Shown here: positions 3,248-14,305 of the stretch, piece after piece
Numbering within the stretch: position 1 is the first letter of the stretch
Layout: the number at the start of each line of letters is the position of its first letter
Assembly (NCBI GenBank): GCA_017303935.1
Contig: JAFLBD010000003.1
Coordinates: 248,001-312,000 of the forward strand
Reading direction: 5' to 3'
Length of the DNA: 64,000 nucleotides
From: Armatimonadota bacterium
GTDB taxonomy: Bacteria > Armatimonadota > Fimbriimonadia > Fimbriimonadales > Fimbriimonadaceae
Notes under the pieces: model-generated
Databases searched by the model: none
Told to the model about the DNA's origin: nothing
The model's input: the letters and a program-made list of their open reading frames with translations, nothing else
Position numbers and translations under genes: made by a program

Positions 3248-3673
3248 CTATTGCAACAGTGCCTCATCTAGAAACTTTAATACATCCAGCGCATTTAACC
3301 GAGTGTCATAGTCTCCGTCTCTAGATAGTCGTATGAGAATTGCACGATCTGCCTCTCCGCCAAGTTTTCGAATTGCAAATGGAACAGTAGATCTAACTTC
3401 GGGGTTTGGATAAGAAGCGAATTTAATAATCTCGGGATACGCCTCGCGGTCTTCGAGAGTGCTGAGCGCCACAATTGAATCTGCAATATCGCCATCAAAA
3501 CTACTTTTCAAGAAATTTCGCAATTGAGGGACATACTGATATAACTTCAGCCGCTGCACAACCAGAATGGCAAACATCCTCTCTCTCGGATCAGGGGAGT
3601 CTAAATGAGATTTCAGAAAATCGGAATCGCCTGTATCGACAATTCTCTGGCACATTTCAGGAAAAGATGTCAT
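3248..3673 (-). CDS. HEAT-repeat-like protein in the Rhs immunity array
   Basis: The 141-residue product is all-helical and contains HEAT-like units: DPRERMFAILVVQRLKLY, then a unit around DREAYPEIIKFASYPNPEVR, then ILIRLSRDGDYDTRLNALDVL. Small HEAT or Armadillo proteins often act as protein-binding immunity proteins downstream of polymorphic toxins. This gene is the last of the minus-strand string downstream of the Rhs gene, so an immunity role is a contextual inference. No enzyme motif is seen. It is preceded by a copy of the intergenic repeat, which may mark the end of the array. Confidence 0.65.
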   Translation of the reverse strand: MTSFPEMCQRIVDTGDSDFLKSHLDSPDPRERMFAILVVQRLKLYQYVPQLRNFLKSSFDGDIADSIVALSTLEDREAYPEIIKFASYPNPEVRSTVPFAIRKLGGEADRAILIRLSRDGDYDTRLNALDVLKFLDEALLQ

Positions 3674-3708
3674 TGTAGAGGTCCTCTCAAAAAGCCGCTA
3701 GTAAGCAG

Positions 3709-3750
3709 CCCCCCTCATTACTCTGTTATGAGGGGGGTTAGGGGCGGAGA
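3709..3750. repeat. Dispersed palindromic G/C-tract repeat, copy 2
   Basis: CCCCCCTCAT and ATGAGGGGGG form the inverted arms around a short TACTCTGTT-type loop, followed by TTAGGGGCGGAGA. It sits between two minus-strand genes of the immunity-like array. Confidence 0.85.
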
Positions 3751-3792
3751 ACAAGTTTCTCACGGCCTCCAAGTTTAGTTAAGATCATCACG

Positions 3793-4584
3793 TCAATCGT
3801 CATTACCGTCAAGATCGTCAGGATCAATCTCGCTGAACAGAAACTTCAGCGCATCCATAAAACGAAAACCAAAGGGCACGGGTTCCGTTTCATACTCATG
3901 CACATTAACAAAGAAGCCTTCATCCGAGCGATTCGGATCCCAAAAGATAAAGCGATACATATTGCCAAATTCGGCAAAAACCAGAACCTTATATTTGAAC
4001 CAGGGAAAGCAATATGTTTTCGGCGATGCGGCGTGGATCGAGGCATGTTCAAAGAGTCTGTCCATTCCGCGAAGTGGCGTGCTCGACAATGCATCACAAA
4101 CGGCTTGGTTAGTTCGCAACAACATCTGTCTCTCCCACACATCGCTGGGAAGGCTACGCACCTCTAGCAGTTTGCCGAGATCAACAGACTTTGGAATTTC
4201 CACAGCTTCTAAATCTCCATGTACCGTGCTAGGTACTTGTAGAAGCTGTACACTTATCGTGTCAGGATCAATCGAATCCACAGCCATTTGGTATTCAATT
4301 CGATCAACTTTGTGATTTACTGCGGAGATTGTTGCGACCGTATGCGAACCAGATAATACGACTGCTACCGGATAGATGTTGTCTTGGCCAGGGCCAGGTT
4401 CCCACGCCTTGATTGTCGGGAGCTCGCCTCCAAACACGACCTGACTGTGATCCGCTGCCTGGACGAAAAGCTCGGTAGGTGCAAACTGAACCTGATCGCC
4501 AATACTAGCCAGCTTTGCCAAAATAGCCGATTCAAATTCACCTAGTGGCTTCTTTCGTCTTTGAAACAGGGATCGCCAATTCAT
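3793..4584 (-). CDS. Unidentified soluble protein in the Rhs immunity array
   Basis: The 263-residue product starts with a basic patch (MNWRSLFQRRKK), has no membrane segment, and ends in an acidic tail (SEIDPDDLDGNDD). Aromatic residues are concentrated in the C-terminal half (TYCFPWFKYKVLVF, MYRFIFWDP). Many toxin-immunity proteins are acidic, soluble and poorly conserved like this, and the gene sits in a same-strand string downstream of the Rhs toxin. I do not recognise a named family, so an immunity function is only inferred from position. Confidence 0.6.
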   Translation of the reverse strand: MNWRSLFQRRKKPLGEFESAILAKLASIGDQVQFAPTELFVQAADHSQVVFGGELPTIKAWEPGPGQDNIYPVAVVLSGSHTVATISAVNHKVDRIEYQMAVDSIDPDTISVQLLQVPSTVHGDLEAVEIPKSVDLGKLLEVRSLPSDVWERQMLLRTNQAVCDALSSTPLRGMDRLFEHASIHAASPKTYCFPWFKYKVLVFAEFGNMYRFIFWDPNRSDEGFFVNVHEYETEPVPFGFRFMDALKFLFSEIDPDDLDGNDD

Positions 4585-4768
4585 TCTTCAGTTCCTCGAA
4601 CAACATATCCAAGCATAGCACCGCCACAAAATCCTCTATCACCTAGCGGTAGCCAGTCGATCTACGGTGACTTTTGCGTGTGGCGCGATTCATGCTCAGT
4701 CTACACCCTGACTAAGATTGAGGGTTCGACAATGTCATTGGCATCCAATTGGCTTTCAGAACTTGGGT

Positions 4769-5301
4769 TTACTCTGGTGGCCAAATTCGCGACTCGATCT
4801 CCAGTCCCTTGGGCAGTTTCTTCCGAATTTCATCCCTTAGAATCAATATACACTTCCCGCCTTCCAACATATGCCATTCGCCTAATGCCTCAGGATTCTC
4901 TCGAGAGGCAGGCTCATAAAATACTTCGACACTTTCGCCAACTTCGTAACGGAGAACGGGCTTTGTTCAAACGCATACAGCCTTAAGAAGAACAGGAGGC
5001 GTGAGAACCTTAAGTTGCTCACATCTCCCACTTCTGGCAATTTATGCCATTTCAGATAATTATCCTCCGACCATCGGTAATAGAAGAACCTTGCCTTCGG
5101 CATGAGTTCCTTGCACACCTCGTACAACTCTTTTAAATCTGAAATCTCCGCTCGAATGACGTACTTATACATCAACCCAAATTCACCATGGAAGTGGCCA
5201 TCCGCCGGCTTCTGATCATCGCTGATCGATCGCCGACGGTGGACGTCAATTATCCTTAAAGCCGTCCCGCGTCCGTAATCATCACAAATCCTATCCCTCA
5301 T
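4769..5301 (-). pseudogene. Frameshifted immunity-like gene
   Basis: The frame starting at 5301 runs 139 codons and stops at 4882. Downstream of about 4960 the coding-like sequence switches frame. After AFEQSP the alternative frame reads VLRYEVGESVEVFYEPASRE, and later GEWHMLEGGKCILILRDEIR, ending at TAA 4769-4771. The in-frame tail (KLAKVSKYFMSLPLERILRH) looks like a shadow. Restoring one missing base near the AACAAAGCCC stretch (about 4963) would give a protein of roughly 175 residues, perhaps starting at the internal MYKYVIRAEI. It is either a genuine inactivating frameshift or a sequencing error. I do not recognise the family. It sits in the array downstream of the Rhs gene. Confidence 0.6.
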
Positions 5302-5333
5302 TACAGTGTTTTGAGAAAGGAGTGCAAATTCTT

Positions 5334-5732
5334 CTACTGGTGGCCCTGATTTCCTAGTTCATCCTTCAATTCTTGAAATCCTGGCGGACGCCATGATGAT
5401 GTCAGATCAGACTCATTCTCAATTAGAGCGATCAAAGCTCTGCGATACAAGCTCGAATCTGGCGGCAGTTCTGCTCCAGAACATTTGGCCTGATAGATGT
5501 AGTATTCCAATTGAAGCGGTAGCCCATTCCGTGAAAAGAATGTAATTTCAGGTTTCACATCATAATGGGCTTCGATCGTAATCATTAATTCTCCGATTGT
5601 CGGAAAGATCTCTGAGTAATTGTCTTCAGAATCAAATGCAACAATCGGGAAGAAACTGTCTTCGACAAGCTCGGCTGGCTCCTTCGGCTTGCTTCTGCGC
5701 TTGAAGAATCTCATAAATAGTTCCATGGCCAT
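5334..5732 (-). CDS. Small unidentified protein in the Rhs immunity array
   Basis: The 132-residue product has a short basic N-terminus (FMRFFKRRSKPKEP) that resembles the MNWRSLFQRRKK start of the 3793-4584 protein. A central segment predicts mixed alpha/beta structure (IFPTIGELMITIEAHYDVK, ITFFSRNGLPLQLEYYIYQ). It ends 32 bases before the next gene on the same strand, consistent with co-transcription. The start could be MAMELF at 5732 or the second Met at 5726. No family is recognised, and an immunity role is inferred from position only. Confidence 0.55.
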   Translation of the reverse strand: MAMELFMRFFKRRSKPKEPAELVEDSFFPIVAFDSEDNYSEIFPTIGELMITIEAHYDVKPEITFFSRNGLPLQLEYYIYQAKCSGAELPPDSSLYRRALIALIENESDLTSSWRPPGFQELKDELGNQGHQ

Positions 5733-5828
5733 TCTATAGTTTTACCAGGTAAGTGAGGGTGCGGTCTATTACTTTGGGCGCACGCCCCGTCGGACGATTT
5801 GCCGGGTCGAGTTGACGCAGTTCTGAGT

Positions 5829-6167
5829 TTACTTCACTATGTTCGGACTGGAAACCAACTTCAGCCCCCAAAAGGAACCCCCGAATGGCATCCATAGAGT
5901 AGCTGGCTCAGTCACTATCGTGAAAATCCCATTAGCAGATAGGGCTCTCCAGATGAAAACCTGCCAAATTGCCACGGACGCCATCAATAATGCCTTAACG
6001 TGATGATCTCCATACAATCTCCATTTGAAAATGATGAGTGCTTGCATGATACCAAGAAACAGAAGAAACAAGTCGACTTCCATCAGATAAATCACAATTC
6101 CTTTTACTCCAAACGCATTTACGGAAAAGGTTGAAAAACTAATTAGACTTGGATAGTTGGCTAACAA
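5829..6167 (-). CDS. Small membrane protein in the Rhs array
   Basis: The 112-residue hydrophobic product has about three transmembrane helices: around residues 22-44 (GIVIYLMEVDLFLLFLGIMQ), 60-80 (ALLMASVAIWQVFIWRAL) and a weaker C-terminal one (FGGSFWGLKLV). It is same-strand with its neighbours and A+T-rich. Small multi-TM proteins can act as immunity to membrane-acting toxins, but nothing here shows that directly. Confidence 0.5.
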   Translation of the reverse strand: MLANYPSLISFSTFSVNAFGVKGIVIYLMEVDLFLLFLGIMQALIIFKWRLYGDHHVKALLMASVAIWQVFIWRALSANGIFTIVTEPATLWMPFGGSFWGLKLVSSPNIVK

Positions 6168-6198
6168 AAGCCGAGAGTATTGCAGGAGGATTCAGAAT

Positions 6199-6534
6199 CT
6201 AGACAGGCGGGCCAGGTTCTGGAATGGATAACAATCCCTCTAGATCTCCAAATTCGACAAGTCGCTGAACCCATAGTTCTTTAAGTCGATAAATGTCAGC
6301 ATCATTTCGGGTTATCTTGGCGTCAGCTCTTGCTTGGCCTTCTATTCCAAGTTTATCTAATACAATGTTCCCAATACTCCTATAGTATGCACCTCCATTG
6401 GCCAAGATGCCCGGGACTATCTCACCGGATTCGTGAAAAATGATGATACTCATGCGCTCACCGGAGAAAATCCATGCCGGCCCAAATCCAGTCTGCTTAA
6501 TTGGTTCCGGAAACAGATCTGCAAAGAGGATCAT
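6199..6534 (-). CDS. Small unidentified protein in the Rhs array
   Basis: From the ATG at 6534 the product is about 111 residues (MILFADLFPEP). A longer in-frame start at 6564 adds ten basic residues and is less likely. Soluble mixed alpha/beta sequence includes a strand pair (AWIFSGERMSIIIFHESGE) and a C-terminal helix (DADIYRLKELWVQRLVEF). It is co-oriented with the membrane protein downstream, with a short gap. The family is not recognised. Confidence 0.5.
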   Translation of the reverse strand: MILFADLFPEPIKQTGFGPAWIFSGERMSIIIFHESGEIVPGILANGGAYYRSIGNIVLDKLGIEGQARADAKITRNDADIYRLKELWVQRLVEFGDLEGLLSIPEPGPPV

Positions 6535-6602
6535 ATGACCAACATACCTCAAGCGGCGACGCATTCAGATTCGACGTGCCATGCGAATTTGGAGTTCAGG
6601 CG

Positions 6603-6902
6603 TCAAAAGGACTTTCTTGACCGCCAGCGCTTCCAGTGATATTTGATTGCCGCGAACATCAAAGGTCCAGAACCCGGATCAATGACAAAAGGAAGCAATG
6701 TGACAGCCCAATGAAACTGATGTCCGCTTGCTTCGTAAGCAATCCAAAGTGCAATCGATAGCAATGTACCACCGAGAAATCCACCCACTGAGCCTTGTTT
6801 CTTAATAAGCAATACATAGTAGTTGCCGAAGGTTACGATAAGTCCAATCGTCCCAATACAGATCGCGACCAATATCACTAGAGCCACAGTCTGACTCCGC
6901 AA
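6603..6902 (-). CDS. Small membrane protein in the Rhs array
   Basis: The 99-residue product has about three transmembrane helices: residues 4-28 (QTVALVILVAICIGTIGLIV), 40-57 (GFLGGTLLSIALWIAYEA) and 64-88 (FHWAVTLLPFVIDPGSGPLM). It ends in a basic tail (KYHWKRWRSRKSF). It is same-strand with the Rhs gene. The function is unknown. Confidence 0.5.
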   Translation of the reverse strand: MRSQTVALVILVAICIGTIGLIVTFGNYYVLLIKKQGSVGGFLGGTLLSIALWIAYEASGHQFHWAVTLLPFVIDPGSGPLMFAAIKYHWKRWRSRKSF

Positions 6903-7148
6903 AACTCAAGACTCATGTTTTGGCTGTCCAAACAATTCTTACTAACCCTCCACCACATAGTGGCACTTGAGTGTACCTTCTGGCACAGTTAATTGCTCTC
7001 TAGAACATTGCGGCGCGGAGAGCTTCACTCAAACCGGCTGCACCTTGCGAGTGAATATCCCAGTCACCAACGTTGTTTCGGTCAACTACCATCGCGACTT
7101 TCTCAAGTACAGAACAAAACCTAATCAAAGGAACGACAAGGGAGTGAT

Positions 7149-7656
7149 TTACCCATAGTGGGGGGCACCTATTCGATATCGGTCTAGCCTCTTTTGCTGA
7201 CTCTCTGGGTCAAGATTGAGTACGCGCTCAACAAAAGTCTCAGTTATGTTTGGACCGGGAATAGCGTAGTCCATCACCTCTCTGTCTTCAATATCGCCAC
7301 GAAAGTGCCTTTTCCCAACGTTAAATGTCTCCGTAAATTCCACTATGGGAATATGCTCTGACATGTAGAACAGTGGCAGCTTCTGCCATTCGTCGTCCAG
7401 ATTTTCGAATGTTCCCAAGGACATCCACCGTCCAGTACTGTATCCATAATTGCTAATAATCTCGCGAAACCATGGCTCGTGATGCAACTTTTCTTCGAGT
7501 TGTGTCAGTGTCGGCATCTCATTGAATTTGTGTGTTGAAATCACGGCCAATCCGATGAGTCCAGGACCAAGATGAGTGACCACGCCTCCAGCAAAACCGC
7601 CACTAGCAAGTTTAAAAGTGAACGCTGTCTTAATTTTCAGTCGCTTTCCCAGTCAT
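7149..7656 (-). CDS. Imm26-like immunity protein, 5' end possibly frameshifted
   Basis: The product aligns by eye with the coupled immunity gene at 8529-9020. GGFAGGVVTH matches QGYIPGIVTH, and both continue with a hydrophobic glycine-rich strand. The homologous region extends upstream of the GTG at 7583 to KTAFTFKLASG. The good ATG at 7656, with AGGTGG just upstream, is in another frame and stops after eight codons. Either translation starts at a CTG (7652) or a 1-base indel lies within the first ten codons. Imm26 proteins neutralise nuclease toxins, so this gene may be an orphan immunity for a lost Rhs tip. Confidence 0.55.
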
Positions 7657-7722
7657 TACCACCTATTTGATTTCTCGAGTTGCCGTTCTAATCACTGAGA
7701 ATCGCGCACGGTAGAGCTTATG

Positions 7723-8223
7723 CTACTTGATTCGATTTGCCAGGAGCCCTTTCTGATCGACAGTCTCCCAAAACTCTTCCCCACCCGAAACCGGAAGTGG
7801 CGACGGCAATTTCAGATACTCGTCAACAGCCGATTGGACAATTGACTCCCAGTTCCCAGAATCAAAGTTGGAATGCTTCTTCTTCATATTTGCGCATATT
7901 CGCCGAATTCCTTCAACAATCAGTTTGGCAAACATCTCTCTCCTCTCGAACTCATTCGAATACAAGAAATCTCTTGACAAGTAGATTGTAATTCCAACAT
8001 CCAGCTTGCTATTCGAAGCATGTATCCGTCCTAGTTTTGTTTCAGGACACAGTTCCGGTTCTATTGATCCCCATGTTTCAAGAAAGAAGCCGAAGGTCAT
8101 TTCAACATTTTCGTTTTGATCCTTAAATTTCTGCGTCAAGAGTTGCAAGAGTGCGGCGTCATCTCTTGCGAATCCGCTCCTAGCGCCCTCGGGTCCGTGA
8201 TCAATTCCTCCAATCATAGTCAT
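7723..8223 (-). CDS. Immunity-like protein next to a possible orphan toxin tip
   Basis: The 166-residue soluble acidic protein has an alpha/beta core (LDVGITIYLSRDFLYSNEF) followed by long helices (MFAKLIVEGIRRICANMKKK, SIVQSAVDEYLKLP). It starts about 30 bases after the end of the 66-residue ORF at 8253-8453, in the same orientation. That arrangement is what an orphan toxin C-terminus plus immunity pair would look like. The start could be Met1 or Met3. No named family can be assigned with confidence. Confidence 0.55.
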   Translation of the reverse strand: MTMIGGIDHGPEGARSGFARDDAALLQLLTQKFKDQNENVEMTFGFFLETWGSIEPELCPETKLGRIHASNSKLDVGITIYLSRDFLYSNEFERREMFAKLIVEGIRRICANMKKKHSNFDSGNWESIVQSAVDEYLKLPSPLPVSGGEEFWETVDQKGLLANRIK

Positions 8224-8528: not shown

Positions 8529-9020
8529 CTAAGAAATGATTCCTTCCCTTCGCTTCCATTCCTCAACTTCATCCTTCGGTACCGCTGCAAATTCTTCAAG
8601 TGTTTGCATCAGCGCAGCATAGCCATAGCCAACATAATTGAGCACTTCCTCGCCATCCGACGGCTCTTCCACGAACACCGGATAGAAGTCCAGCCCGCCA
8701 AGATACATGGTTGGAGGCTCGTCACTACACACTCGAAATAGCGGGAGTCGCACCAGGGGAGAAGGAATTTGCACGTTTCTTGCAAATAACTTCCAGTGAT
8801 GTCGCGTAAAGCCGATCCCTGCGATATAAGCACGAAACCAAGGGGCACAGGCTATTGCCCTCTCGATCATTTCTGTCGAACAATCAACGGGCATTAGCGT
8901 CTGCCCAAAGGCCGCAAAACCGGAATATTTGCCTTTATGAGTGACTATCCCAGGGATATACCCTTGATCCCGTAAGGGAACTCCAAACAACATTCCTGGC
9001 TTTAGAACAATACGTTTCAC
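8529..9020 (-). CDS. Imm26-like immunity protein translationally coupled to the Rhs toxin
   Basis: The 163-residue product (MKRIVLKPGMLFGVPL, then GYIPGIVTH) has the start typical of the Imm26 family, where a basic strand leads into a G-x-x-F-x-x-P-L motif. Translation begins at a GTG that shares its first base with the TAG stop of the Rhs gene (TAGTG). A strong AGGAGG lies inside the last Rhs codons, so the two are translationally coupled. Imm26 genes are known neighbours of polymorphic nuclease toxins. Here the toxin tip is a GIY-YIG nuclease, so the inferred role is to block it in the producing cell. A second, related gene lies at 7149-7656. Confidence 0.8.
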   Translation of the reverse strand: MKRIVLKPGMLFGVPLRDQGYIPGIVTHKGKYSGFAAFGQTLMPVDCSTEMIERAIACAPWFRAYIAGIGFTRHHWKLFARNVQIPSPLVRLPLFRVCSDEPPTMYLGGLDFYPVFVEEPSDGEEVLNYVGYGYAALMQTLEEFAAVPKDEVEEWKRREGIIS

Positions 9021-12000
9021 TACGTTCCTCCTAAGCTTGCCTTGATGAGGTTGTAAAGTGGATTGTTCTGACCAATTGGCATTCTCTTGTTAAGTAAATC
9101 ACAACCTGCTTCCTTTTGGAACGAAATCTCCTGCATCTCTCGAATAAGTCGTTCAAACGGATCATTAATTTTCATTACGATCTTCATTTCCAACCCTACC
9201 TTATCTGGATCTCTCAAATGCTCCCAGTTTCTTCGTACAAAGTCATTGGTTTGCCCTACATACCTAACAAGCCCTGTGCACTTATCTACCAAATGGTATA
9301 TTCCGCCCTGGCATGTTTGAGCAACGGTGGTTAACTCATTACTAGGGTCACCATCGGCGGAAGCGGCCCCTAACCCAGCGCCGGCGAGCTTACCTGCAGC
9401 TGCCCAAAGTTCTTCAGCCAATGCAGTATTGCCAGCTTCTTCAGCCGCGATGGCAGCGAGCTCGAGTTCTTCTACTTCCTTCGCTGGAGTTAGGCCGGTT
9501 GCATCTGTAAGCGTAGTAGGACGGTTGATGCAGTACCCATACACATTAATCCCACCAGAGAAGCCGATCGGATCGCGGGTGAGCCAGCGGCCGGCAGTCG
9601 GATCATAGAACCGGTTCTGGCAGTAGTAGAGGCCCGTTTCTGTGTCGAGGTAGTAGCCCCACTTGCCGTTAAAGCTAAATGGCTGCTTCAGCCCATGCTT
9701 CTCTTCGTCGGGATAGGCAAAGTTGCGCGAACCCCATGCGTTGTACGCAAAGAAGATGGCGTCTTGACCTTCATCGGTGATGATGTTGACCACATTGCCT
9801 TGCTGGTCAAACATGTAGAAGTAGGCCGTAGAGCCCTCGACTCTTGAAACGAGTCCATCGGGCGCGAAGGCATTCCGGGCGACGACAGCACCAGATGCAT
9901 CCAGTTCGCAGACGACGTTGCCGTTGTCATACAAGAAGAATGTCTTCGGCGCCGTCGACGCGTCTTGCCGCCAAGCCCTCAGGTTGTCTGCGCGGTAGCC
10001 GTTCGTTTGTGTGCCAAACGACAGCATCCGGTTTTCTTTGTCAAAGGTCGCGTTGACGCCCTTCCACTTCGTCGGATTTCCGTTGCCGTCGTACGTGAAA
10101 TCCGTTCCGGTGCGCTGGTTGGCGTTGTTGTACTGGAAGCCCGTGGCACTTCGGAAAGTGGTCGGATTCCCAGCGTTGTCGTACGCCTGCGATTCGGTGT
10201 ATCCGCCATATCGAGTGCTCACTTCTTGAGTCAGGCGATCCTTCGAATCGTACGAGAAGTTCACCGATCCGTCCATGTCTGGAACGACATCGATGTCGTG
10301 ATACAGGCTCTTCAGGTTGAATGCGCCATCGTATTCGAGCGAATCGTATTTACTCTTTAGCGCTTCGGCGTAGTTAGCAACCTGGGACAACAAACCCAAC
10401 TGGTTGTAGGAATAGTTCGTGTAGATGTCGTTAGGGAGATAACGGTGAGTCATCCGTCCGGCGGCATCGTAGGTGAACGAGCTGTTGCCTTCCGCAGTCG
10501 AGAATCCGATGCATCGCCCGGCTTTGTCGTAGGAGTATCCCAACGAGTCGCCAGGATGCGACATCGACTGGCGACTGCCGTCGGGGTAGTAGGTGTAGCT
10601 GATCGTCTTCGATCCGGTCATCCCCGTGTAGGCCGTGGTCCGGCTGAGGATCATGTCGGATTCATCGTAGGTAGCCGTTTCAGAACCTGTACCGTTGCTC
10701 CAACCCGTCGGACGCTGATATTCGACGTAGGTCAGAGTCACGTCCTCTGATGGCGCGGCTGGATAAAGGATCGACGACAAATTGCCGTTCGGCTCGTCGT
10801 AAACAAAGTTCGTCACCATGCCGCGACCGTCGGTCCTGCTCAGCGGGTTGTTTTGCAGGTCATAGATCGTGAATTGCGTCACATCGGCTGTAGAACCGGT
10901 TGCGCCAGATGGCTGGCTGAACTGAGTCAGCTGACCTTTGGTGTTGTAGGTATAGGTCGTGGTGTGGCCGGCATTATTGAATCCGTCGCGCACCGTTTTG
11001 GTGCGATACAGGCCATCGTAGGAGACATAAACATCCTCCGTGCTTCCAGTTCTAGAAAGCAGTTCGCCCGTCTTGCCGTAACTGAGGTTTACGGTGCGGA
11101 ACGCCGTTCCGCCGGCTTCACTAAAGGACTCGACCCGATTTACAGGGCCGCCTAGCCACGCGTAGGTATTGACGGTTGTCGCACGCCCAGTACCGGTGTT
11201 GCCGGTAGCAGGAAGTTGAACCTGCGTTTGCTGATCCGAAAGAGGATCATAGGCAAAATCGGTGGTGTTTCCGAGATTGTCCCAAGTCTGAATCAGGTTC
11301 CCACGGACGTCATAGCGGAAGTGAGTCTTCTCGCCATTGCTGTTCGTGACCACAACCGGCTGCCCTCTCTTAGCGGTGGTTGTGTACGTTCCGTCGGTGG
11401 TGTAATTGAGTGTAGTCGTGTGGACGGTTTCAGCGTTATTTCCAGGACTCTGAATCTGGAGAATATTGCCGAGCGCGTCGTAGGTATACGTCGTCGTTTG
11501 GAGAGTCGCGCTGACTCCTGTCTGCCCCGGCGCAGGCGAGCTCACGGTTTGGACTAGACCATTTGCATATCTCGTGTAGGTCGTCTTCGCCCGAGTCGGT
11601 GTGAAGTTGTATGGTCCTGCGCCAGTTCCTTCCTGAACCTCGATGAGATCCCCGCCCCAGTACGCGCCAGAAGTTTCGTCGAATTTGAACTGGGTTCCAA
11701 TTCCAGGTAGCGGATTTGAGAAGCCCTGGCTCTCTAGGCGATAGGTGTAGACCAGATTCCGAGGGTATTGATAGTCGTACCTCGTTGTGATCGATTTGGT
11801 CGAAGAGTAGTGCTCGGTGGTGACCGAAACGTCGCCGCTCGCGTCGTACCACGCTTCAGAAACCTTGACTCCATCCGCGTTATAAATCGCCTCAACTTGC
11901 TGGTTGTTATTGAAGTCCGCCGAAAACTCGTCAATGACGGTGTTCGTCGCATCCTTCGTGGTTACCTTTGTCCGGAACTCCGATACTTCAGTGAACTCAG

Positions 12001-14305
12001 TCCGATTCCCGTTCGGGTCCACAATTGCTTCGACAACCGCTGCTGCAGGTGCCGCCGGATATTCGAACGTCCATGTGGACATTGCGCCGCCGGAAGGGGT
12101 CGAGTTGTAGTAGGCAGGATTTGGCTGACTGATCGTCTGCAGGTACGGATAACTTTGGCCATCACCGTTGCCGAAGAGGCCGTAGGTGTATTCCGTCGCA
12201 AGCGGAACAGAACTCGGTGTTCCGGTGTAAGGCTGCGAAACCTTCCTTAAGTACTTCCCATTCGGGAAATCAAGATTTATGCCGCCGAGATCGTTGGCAA
12301 TCTCCTCGACCTCGTACTTCACCTTGCGGCCGAAAGCGTCGACGGTTGATTCCAAAATCCCGGAGGAATCAAGATTCAGCGTCAAAAGTACGCTGCCATT
12401 CTTGTCTTTGATTTGCGACAGAACCGGAATTTGTGTGGTCGGGAAATTCGGATTCGCAACCGCCGTTCGAACCAGTTCAATCCGGTCTCCAAACCGATCG
12501 ACCATGTATTGAATCGGGCGATAGCTATCCGCGCCGGCTGGAATCGGCGACGCATAGACGCCTGGAATCGAATAGTCTGGGCCCGAAGAGCTCTCAGTTA
12601 CCCACTTTGATCGATCCTTATACTCGATCTCATACCGATCACCGCCAGTAGCACTATCCCAGTACCAAGTGACCTTCACGGCATGCTCGATGCCGACCGT
12701 GCATTCCACGGGTCCTGGATTAGAGGCTGAAGGCGAAGGAACGCCGATCGGATGCCTAAACCCGATGATCGAACCGTTCGGTTCTACTAATCCTCGATCA
12801 CGAATGACACCGACGTTATAGGGCGTGGACCACCCGTTACCGAGCTCGCAATAGGTCGTTGCCTGACTGTTGTAAATTCCGCCATAGCTGACCGACGGGC
12901 CGCCGATTGCATTGAAAACTGAACTTCCACCAGCGAATCCCGTTTCGGATGCCCCCGTTGCAACGTTCACCATCGCAGGGCCACGCGAGATCGTCATACA
13001 AGCAGGTCGATCGCATGGGCAGCACAGGCCTTCAAGCCGTCCGCCGCAAACTGTGGAGTAGGGACCGATGTATCCAATCCCCGCCGTGACGAGTTGACCT
13101 AGAAGACCCTGGAACCCCGTCGGGGCACCGACCGGACTCATCCAGCGAGCGTCAATCGTTGACTGTGACGATTTTGGCAATGCCGCCAAAGCGAGCTGGT
13201 AGTCCGACCCTTTTGGAGCGACCGCAAGAAACGCGTCCGCTTCCATCAACTGCCATTGCTCCCAAGTCAGATGATTCCGGCCACCGGGCCATTCCCCGCA
13301 GTCGCTGCAGAAATAGTCGACACCCTTTTCATCGGCTCCGGCAACGGCAATGAAGTGGTCGTGCTCGACCCTCGCGACAATCGGAATCCCCTTGTTCAAT
13401 CGGAACAAAGCCTTCAGCGATTCGTTGTTTGAAACTTTGATCTGATGCGCTGACAACCCGAACTTGGGCGCGGCATTTTTGAGGTCATCGAAAGAGCTGC
13501 CTTCCCCGGTGTGGCGAATCTTCTTGACCAATGACTCTTCCGAAAATTCCTTGCCAAGCTTCCGCAAAATCTGCCCCATCGCGGCAACGCCGCAAAGAGG
13601 ATCGAGGTGAAACGGCTCGGTGATGCCCGCTTCGGCTCGCTTCAGGTGGTATCCCGCGCAGCTCTTCGCCATCGCGTAGAAGCCGACTGCATCCCGATAA
13701 TTGAACCCAGAAGCATTGCCCTTTACTGCGGTGGCAAAGGAGTCAGAAGCTTCTTGGTAGCGACCTTGGCGGAACAATGAAATCGCACGGTCGTAACGGG
13801 CAATCCCAAATTCCGGACTGTCTTGGATCGCGGATTTGCTCGCTTTCAGGAACCAGTCTTCGGCGATCGCTGGTTCAAAGAGTCCCAAGTAGCCTTCGCC
13901 CACGCGGATTTGCGCCCGTGCTCGTTCAGTACGGCTCAGACCAGTGGCTTCAGCTTTCTTGATGAGTTCTCGAACTTCTTGCGGACTCGTTTTGTGCGTC
14001 AGTCGTCCGACGTCATTCAGTTGCGTTCTGAAGCTCGGGGCCTCCGCTTGAATTGGTGCTGAAGGGCCCGATTCAGAAGGTTCTGTGGACATCATAGCCC
14101 CGGCAACGGTTGGCGCCACTCCAGGCACAATATTCTGGCTTCTTACAGGCACTAAGCTAACGACAGCCGGTGCCACAGAATTCAGCAGCAGGATTCCAGC
14201 CACGCATCGCGAGATGAGATTTCTACCGGAATTTGAACTTAGAAAGCGAGATCGTGATTTGAGCAACATGACAGTCACCGCACAGCAAAGTGCTTTTCCT
14301 ATCAT
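9020..14305 (-). CDS. Rhs polymorphic toxin with C39-like peptidase domain and C-terminal GIY-YIG nuclease
   Basis: The 1761-residue secreted Rhs/YD-repeat protein has these parts in order. There is an N-terminal hydrophobic export segment (about 32-52), then TPR-like helices (135-195). A C39-family papain-like cysteine peptidase domain follows (230-365), with Cys238 in DPLCGVAAMGQ, His317 in EHDHFIAVAG and probably Asp335. A long YD-repeat shell covers about 650-1560. The Rhs core motif (GRWLTRDPIGFSGG, then NVYGYCINRP) is at 1566-1605, and an Ala/Glu-rich linker precedes the tip. The tip (1667-1761) is a GIY-YIG nuclease with GIY 1668-1670, YVG 1682-1684, Arg1691/1692, His1696, Glu1726 and LLN to 1739. 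Such proteins encapsulate the toxin and release it on contact. The C39 domain could process the Rhs protein or accompany export. Met13 is an alternative start. Confidence 0.92.
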   Translation of the reverse strand: MIGKALCCAVTVMLLKSRSRFLSSNSGRNLISRCVAGILLLNSVAPAVVSLVPVRSQNIVPGVAPTVAGAMMSTEPSESGPSAPIQAEAPSFRTQLNDVGRLTHKTSPQEVRELIKKAEATGLSRTERARAQIRVGEGYLGLFEPAIAEDWFLKASKSAIQDSPEFGIARYDRAISLFRQGRYQEASDSFATAVKGNASGFNYRDAVGFYAMAKSCAGYHLKRAEAGITEPFHLDPLCGVAAMGQILRKLGKEFSEESLVKKIRHTGEGSSFDDLKNAAPKFGLSAHQIKVSNNESLKALFRLNKGIPIVARVEHDHFIAVAGADEKGVDYFCSDCGEWPGGRNHLTWEQWQLMEADAFLAVAPKGSDYQLALAALPKSSQSTIDARWMSPVGAPTGFQGLLGQLVTAGIGYIGPYSTVCGGRLEGLCCPCDRPACMTISRGPAMVNVATGASETGFAGGSSVFNAIGGPSVSYGGIYNSQATTYCELGNGWSTPYNVGVIRDRGLVEPNGSIIGFRHPIGVPSPSASNPGPVECTVGIEHAVKVTWYWDSATGGDRYEIEYKDRSKWVTESSSGPDYSIPGVYASPIPAGADSYRPIQYMVDRFGDRIELVRTAVANPNFPTTQIPVLSQIKDKNGSVLLTLNLDSSGILESTVDAFGRKVKYEVEEIANDLGGINLDFPNGKYLRKVSQPYTGTPSSVPLATEYTYGLFGNGDGQSYPYLQTISQPNPAYYNSTPSGGAMSTWTFEYPAAPAAAVVEAIVDPNGNRTEFTEVSEFRTKVTTKDATNTVIDEFSADFNNNQQVEAIYNADGVKVSEAWYDASGDVSVTTEHYSSTKSITTRYDYQYPRNLVYTYRLESQGFSNPLPGIGTQFKFDETSGAYWGGDLIEVQEGTGAGPYNFTPTRAKTTYTRYANGLVQTVSSPAPGQTGVSATLQTTTYTYDALGNILQIQSPGNNAETVHTTTLNYTTDGTYTTTAKRGQPVVVTNSNGEKTHFRYDVRGNLIQTWDNLGNTTDFAYDPLSDQQTQVQLPATGNTGTGRATTVNTYAWLGGPVNRVESFSEAGGTAFRTVNLSYGKTGELLSRTGSTEDVYVSYDGLYRTKTVRDGFNNAGHTTTYTYNTKGQLTQFSQPSGATGSTADVTQFTIYDLQNNPLSRTDGRGMVTNFVYDEPNGNLSSILYPAAPSEDVTLTYVEYQRPTGWSNGTGSETATYDESDMILSRTTAYTGMTGSKTISYTYYPDGSRQSMSHPGDSLGYSYDKAGRCIGFSTAEGNSSFTYDAAGRMTHRYLPNDIYTNYSYNQLGLLSQVANYAEALKSKYDSLEYDGAFNLKSLYHDIDVVPDMDGSVNFSYDSKDRLTQEVSTRYGGYTESQAYDNAGNPTTFRSATGFQYNNANQRTGTDFTYDGNGNPTKWKGVNATFDKENRMLSFGTQTNGYRADNLRAWRQDASTAPKTFFLYDNGNVVCELDASGAVVARNAFAPDGLVSRVEGSTAYFYMFDQQGNVVNIITDEGQDAIFFAYNAWGSRNFAYPDEEKHGLKQPFSFNGKWGYYLDTETGLYYCQNRFYDPTAGRWLTRDPIGFSGGINVYGYCINRPTTLTDATGLTPAKEVEELELAAIAAEEAGNTALAEELWAAAGKLAGAGLGAASADGDPSNELTTVAQTCQGGIYHLVDKCTGLVRYVGQTNDFVRRNWEHLRDPDKVGLEMKIVMKINDPFERLIREMQEISFQKEAGCDLLNKRMPIGQNNPLYNLIKASLGGT

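Follow-up and report, generated by a model that had tools for sequence, protein, structure and literature searches.

An Rhs polymorphic toxin from a probable Fimbriimonadaceae host with an N-terminal C39 papain-like domain, and double-glycine motifs in cis in its sister proteins

The locus described here is located in a 64,000-nucleotide stretch of DNA (hereafter referred to as the window), which forms part of contig C3 of a 2.56 Mb genome whose host is probably a member of the Fimbriimonadaceae (Armatimonadota). The minus-strand open reading frame 9020-14305, which a first-pass annotation had reported as an Rhs toxin combining these domains, has exact coordinates and is open as described. Its product of 1761 aa (the window protein) is an Rhs polymorphic toxin with an N-terminal C39 papain-like domain, and its parts follow one another in the order given in Table 1. 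Signal-like or Tat-like segments also open the N-termini of relatives.

Table 1. Features of the rhs locus, in window coordinates; residue numbers refer to the window protein.
Feature	Position	Strand	Basis or remark
rhs gene	9020..14305	-	ATG start, TAG stop, 1761 aa
Putative export segment (signal peptide or membrane anchor), residues ~27-55	14141..14227	-	hydrophobic by sequence reading
TPR-like helical array, residues ~103-225	13631..13999	-	model, fold matches and weak Pfam TPR
C39 papain-like peptidase domain, residues ~231-368	13202..13615	-	Pfam, model, fold search
Cys238 codon, predicted nucleophile	13592..13594	-	alignment of relatives
His317 codon, predicted catalytic His	13355..13357	-	alignment of relatives
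Asp335 codon, predicted catalytic Asp, within CxDCG motif (residues 333-337)	13301..13303	-	alignment
CGG (residues 420-422) ahead of RLEG, Cys-rich linker; low-confidence candidate cleavage site	13040..13048	-	linker comparison
Rhs/YD-repeat cage, residues ~444-1605	9491..12976	-	Pfam, NCBIfam
Core autoprotease motif DPIG..DATG, residues 1578-1604	9494..9574	-	sequence motif
GIY-YIG nuclease tip, residues ~1665-1750	9056..9313	-	Pfam below cut-off, plus homologous tips
Probable immunity gene, 163 aa, GTG start	8529..9020	-	position only; no family match
Second gene akin to the probable immunity gene	7149..7583	-	24% identity, 79 aa, E 4e-6 (single comparison)

The proposed assignment of the N-terminal domain to the C39-type peptidases is correct by sequence and by predicted fold. 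The Pfam profile Peptidase_C39 (PF03412) matches residues 238-328 with an E-value of 7.1e-11 (42.5 bits as compared to a cut-off of 22), and an AlphaFold2 model of residues 95-395, generated with an alignment of 17 relatives, shows a C39 fold preceded by an array of TPR-like helices (pLDDT 88.5). The best match to this model among solved structures is LahT in complex with its leader peptide (6mpz; Z 16.2, rmsd 2.0, 125 residues), while the ComA peptidase (3k8u) gives Z 15.1 and the C39-like domain of HlyB scores lower than both. Cys238, His317 and Asp335 are present exactly as they had been named. Starting from the first aligned pair (position 139 of the model and 22 of 6mpz) and assuming no gap, Cys238 falls on Cys27 of LahT, whose triad consists of Cys27, His101 and Asp117 (PMC6363468); Asp335 is located 18 residues beyond the His, as opposed to 16 in LahT. 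The oxyanion position six residues before the Cys, being Gln in C39 peptidases, is occupied by Phe232, and this Gln is found in 0/18 rows of the window-clade alignment. The role of the oxyanion Gln has been cast into doubt by the work on LahT (PMC6363468).

The window-clade alignment comprises 18 rows with ~34-44% identity to the window protein, in which the Cys is conserved in 16, the His in 17 and the Asp in 17, so that 15/18 rows display the full triad. The losses correspond to three distinct relatives, all inside the window's own family, and involve different substitutions, namely C to A (L008), C to S (L053) and H to R plus D to G (L009). Structural residues such as C333, C336, W348, Q350 and W351 (18/18 rows) are better conserved than the catalytic Cys (16/18). 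Loss of activity, a possibility raised in the first-pass annotation, is real in those relatives with broken triads, but the triad of the window protein is intact. As a separate observation, both Cys residues of the CxDCG motif surrounding the Asp (333 and 336) are invariant in 18/18 rows, including those with a broken triad, and may bind a metal or form a disulfide. Furthermore, the TPR-C39 region of L053 is identical to that of L052, these loci being present in genomes of different genera (G162 and G164), which reflects either recent transfer or assembly cross-contamination.

Within the phylum, a TPR-C39 profile generated matches in 65 of 291 genomes, many of which represent other C39 proteins, whereas C39-Rhs loci, a set that takes in some partial copies at contig ends, were retrieved from 23/291 Armatimonadota genomes. 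Two groups can be distinguished among these fusions, the window clade with 18 genomes and a sister group of 8 proteins from 5 genomes. The co-occurrence of C39 and RHS repeats was verified by Pfam in eleven relatives, and the relatives found with the TPR-C39 module carry the names Fimbriimonadaceae, Chthonomonadaceae and Armatimonadetes, which is the basis for the probable host assignment. A matching module is absent from the four congeners searched, and relatives of the C39 module were not encountered in the viral contigs or plasmids searched; in an empty-site comparison with congeners, the flanks were missing or merely 33% identical. The notion that this is an uncommon combination fits the searchable literature, but the fusion recurs inside the phylum.

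Other arrangements of the C39 domain were observed alongside these fusions. Stand-alone exported proteins with TPR-like and C39 parts (~275-356 aa) and without Rhs are encoded by L071, L072, L073, L074 and L075, while an exported C39-type domain followed by beta-type repeats (~400-480 aa) is specified by L076:1115-2566 (-) and L070:3846-5036 (+), coordinates being approximate. The latter type is present in several copies per genome in some relatives, and the L070 copy is devoid of the Cys and His. At L047 (G080), TPR-C39-Rhs is part of a 3405-aa open frame in which a very long stretch of repeated sequence precedes the module.

The sister group supplies the evidence that bears most directly on a possible substrate. 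In 8/8 sisters an invariant Gly-Gly is located between C39 and Rhs, 131-140 residues past the catalytic Cys. In four of them it terminates the sequences LSQQELASAWGG, ISAQEMKLVWGG, LSPEELRNAWGG and LSMADLENAWGG, positioned 133-140 residues past the Cys and immediately ahead of Rhs, which conform to [LI]Sxx[ED][LM]xx[AV]xGG. The pattern is that of a textbook double-glycine leader: a hydrophobic residue occupies position -12, Ser position -11, an acidic residue position -8 and a second hydrophobic residue position -7, and the motif closes with Gly-Gly; position -4 holds Ala or Val. In the remaining four, the invariant Gly-Gly is followed by CCG or CCR. The strict motif occurs four times in the 87,732 residues of the examined ORFs, in each case in a sister linker, and was obtained in at most 6 per 20,000 shuffles for any linker. 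Cleavage after Gly-Gly is known from LahT and ComA, and also from Cpe1, a related toxin (PMC6363468, PMC12136450). All C39 matches in the five sister genomes are within Rhs ORFs or short ORFs (254-524 aa), so that a C39 ABC exporter is not seen in them, for which reason the natural cutter would be the fused C39 domain itself. The presence of a cut signal in cis in several relatives suggests a toxin that frees itself of its own front end. Among the sisters, two (L010) carry Glu in place of the catalytic Asp, and the ORFs of L061 and L065 stop inside the YD repeats and contain no Rhs core.

A canonical double-glycine leader was not found in the linker of the window protein, which instead contains a Cys-rich stretch that is conserved in the clade and includes CGG|RLEG at 420-422. 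The equivalents of CGG|R in relatives read CGGK, CGGR, CGAR, CGMR, CGLK, CGYK and others, with Gly-Gly or Gly-Ala at this site in 6/13 triad-intact relatives of the clade as compared to 0/3 triad-broken ones, a sample too small for correlation. CGG|R is put forward, at low confidence, as the best candidate cut site of the window protein. Self-processing, one of the options in the first-pass annotation, gains support from the cis motifs of the sisters, but the window protein contributes just this candidate; with neither a canonical leader nor an oxyanion Gln, the self-cleavage reading is weaker for the window protein than for the sisters.

The C-terminal half of the earlier description, consisting of YD repeats and an Rhs core motif, is borne out by Pfam RHS repeats in seven stretches (E 6e-20), by NCBIfam Rhs_assc_core at residues 1521-1605 (E 7e-20) and by the DPIG..DATG motif. 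The C-terminal 200 residues of L048, L049, L054, L055 and L060 differ from one another and from those of the window protein, the shared N-terminal part thus carrying variable tips. The GIY-YIG identity of the tip does not pass on its own score (E 0.002, 18.8 bits, under the Pfam cut-off of 22.6), but is upheld by a relative, the end of an Rhs ORF in a tandem Rhs array of G158, which is 43% identical over 83 aa and reaches 23.1 bits. Y1670, YVG1682-1684, R1691, E1723 and N1739 are invariant across three homologous tips, and the [RK]xxE spacing of Tox-URI1 becomes RxxRE in the window tip, for which the structure model is poor (pLDDT 61.6).

The GTG of the 163-aa downstream gene overlaps the rhs stop codon by one base and is preceded by an AGGAGG ribosome site, making this gene a probable immunity gene. 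It did not match an immunity family, and its identification as Imm26 was rejected (no match at E 10, and E 0.07 with respect to the Imm26-like gene of a relative). Further behind the toxin, at 3248-8223 (-), the window contains small same-strand ORFs without Pfam matches, apart from HEAT repeats in one of them (3248-3673), which resemble a reserve of immunity genes. Elsewhere in the same genome (L101, contig C1, 879500-892000), a 1583-aa Rhs gene that has no C39 precedes three truncated Rhs-core ORFs, which differ in their ends and are interspersed with small genes, as is typical for arrays of spare toxin tips.

Considered together, these data lead us to propose, with a probability of roughly 0.5, that the window protein is an exported Rhs toxin whose N-terminal TPR-C39 part acts as a built-in processing peptidase, yielding a freed cage with a nuclease tip against which the downstream gene confers immunity. 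The C39 domain, if catalytic as we infer, would cut the linker that joins it to the Rhs cage, acting either on its own chain or on that of a neighbouring copy, and this cut would separate the cage from the N-terminal part, which in the presumed topology is probably membrane-bound. N-terminal cleavage just ahead of the cage is established for other Rhs effectors (PMC8765631). Inside the cage, the Rhs core autoprotease would release the GIY-YIG nuclease, the timing, order and place of the two cuts being as we infer them; the released nuclease would then attack the nucleic acid of a competitor as its presumed target, while the overlapping downstream gene would shield the producer. At a little less than even odds, a more general formulation may also apply: an Rhs family that carries a C39 leader peptidase and its own double-glycine leader in one polypeptide as a release switch outside the cytosol, in which the window protein would represent a divergent branch whose active site reads CxDC and whose GG site is relaxed.

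Given that some relatives have lost the triad and that the window protein is without leader or oxyanion Gln, the main rival is an inactive binding module, i.e. a non-catalytic or decaying C39-like domain that binds peptides and serves in surface anchoring or export, comparable to the C39-like domain of HlyB and to the inactive transglutaminase domains of other Rhs toxins. Triads are broken in L008, L009 and L052/L053 while the structural residues of the fold are invariant, the oxyanion Gln is missing, and Zhang et al. 2012 reported Rhs toxins with inactive papain-fold domains at the N-terminus, for which anchoring was proposed (PMC3482391). This reading is possible, if on balance somewhat improbable, since the full triad persists in 15/18 rows with losses limited to one family, and since it leaves unexplained the leader motif ending in the invariant Gly-Gly of the eight sisters.

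An active peptidase directed at another protein, being a cell-surface partner or, as with Cpe1, a protein of the target cell, would have precedents in the C39-like warheads of polymorphic toxins (Tox-PLC39, PMC3482391; Cpe1, PMC12136450). We regard it as unlikely, because the known C39 warheads are C-terminal whereas the C39 of the window protein is N-terminal, outside the cage and accompanied by a separate tip, because there is a single probable immunity gene placed directly behind that tip, and because the sisters hold the substrate motif in cis. A role in bacteriocin-type export through an ABC transporter, although solved C39 structures retrieved by sequence are mostly transporter domains, is very improbable: the window protein has no transporter domain (Pfam), seven relatives searched have no exporter-sized C39 ORF, and the window genome contains no second C39 domain, which also renders unlikely the partner bacteriocin system that had been envisaged.

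The window protein can be compared with several known systems. It shares with the C39 domains of PCAT/AMS proteins (LahT, ComA, PCAT1) the same profile, predicted fold (Z 14-16) and Cys-His-Asp order, and its sisters share the double-glycine leader motif with the substrates of these peptidases. It differs in not being fused to an ABC transporter, in an Asp shifted by two residues within CxDCG and in a clade devoid of the oxyanion Gln; moreover, considering its export-type N-terminus, the window C39 domain is probably situated outside the cytosol, unlike its PCAT/AMS counterparts.

The transglutaminase Rhs toxins of Zhang et al. 2012 (PMC3482391) likewise contain a papain-fold domain between an export segment and the Rhs repeats, although in the present case the domain is of the C39 family, with a triad that is intact in the window protein and in most relatives. 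Tox-PLC39 and Cpe1 (PMC3482391, PMC12136450) also represent a C39-type papain fold in a polymorphic toxin, but as C-terminal toxin domains, whereas in the window protein the C39 lies at the N-terminus and a GIY-YIG domain forms the warhead. Residues of the GIY-YIG type are similarly found at the Rhs C-terminus in Tox-URI1, alongside which Imm26 is listed (PMC3482391); the gene behind the GIY-YIG tip of a relative has a weak Imm26 match (E 0.05), as opposed to the window downstream gene, which has none.

Polymorphic toxins are known to contain papain-like releasing peptidases, C39-like warheads and papain-fold domains at the N-terminus (PMC3482391, PMC12136450), but a description of Rhs proteins that combine an N-terminal C39 with a double-glycine site in cis was not found in the open-access literature. 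What is new in the current work, at the level of sequence, is the invariant Gly-Gly between C39 and Rhs in the sisters, with the leader motif in four. The T6SS effectors RhsA and TseI (PMC8765631, PMC7170923) have in common with the window protein the Rhs cage, the C-terminal core autoprotease motif and a nuclease-type tip, and their N-terminal part is cut just ahead of the cage. By comparison, no PAAR was found in the window protein by Pfam and no gene for the VipB sheath in its genome, so that T6SS delivery was rejected, and a recognisable peptidase domain precedes the cage of the window protein. The activity that makes the N-terminal cut of RhsA is not yet identified (PMC8765631), and the way in which some Rhs toxins shed their N-terminal part is unsettled; the present family pairs a recognisable peptidase with an adjoining textbook substrate site, which makes the question of N-terminal loss testable. 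If the proposal is true, C39 leader peptidases would extend from exporter domains and C-terminal warheads to the self-processing of giant exported toxins.
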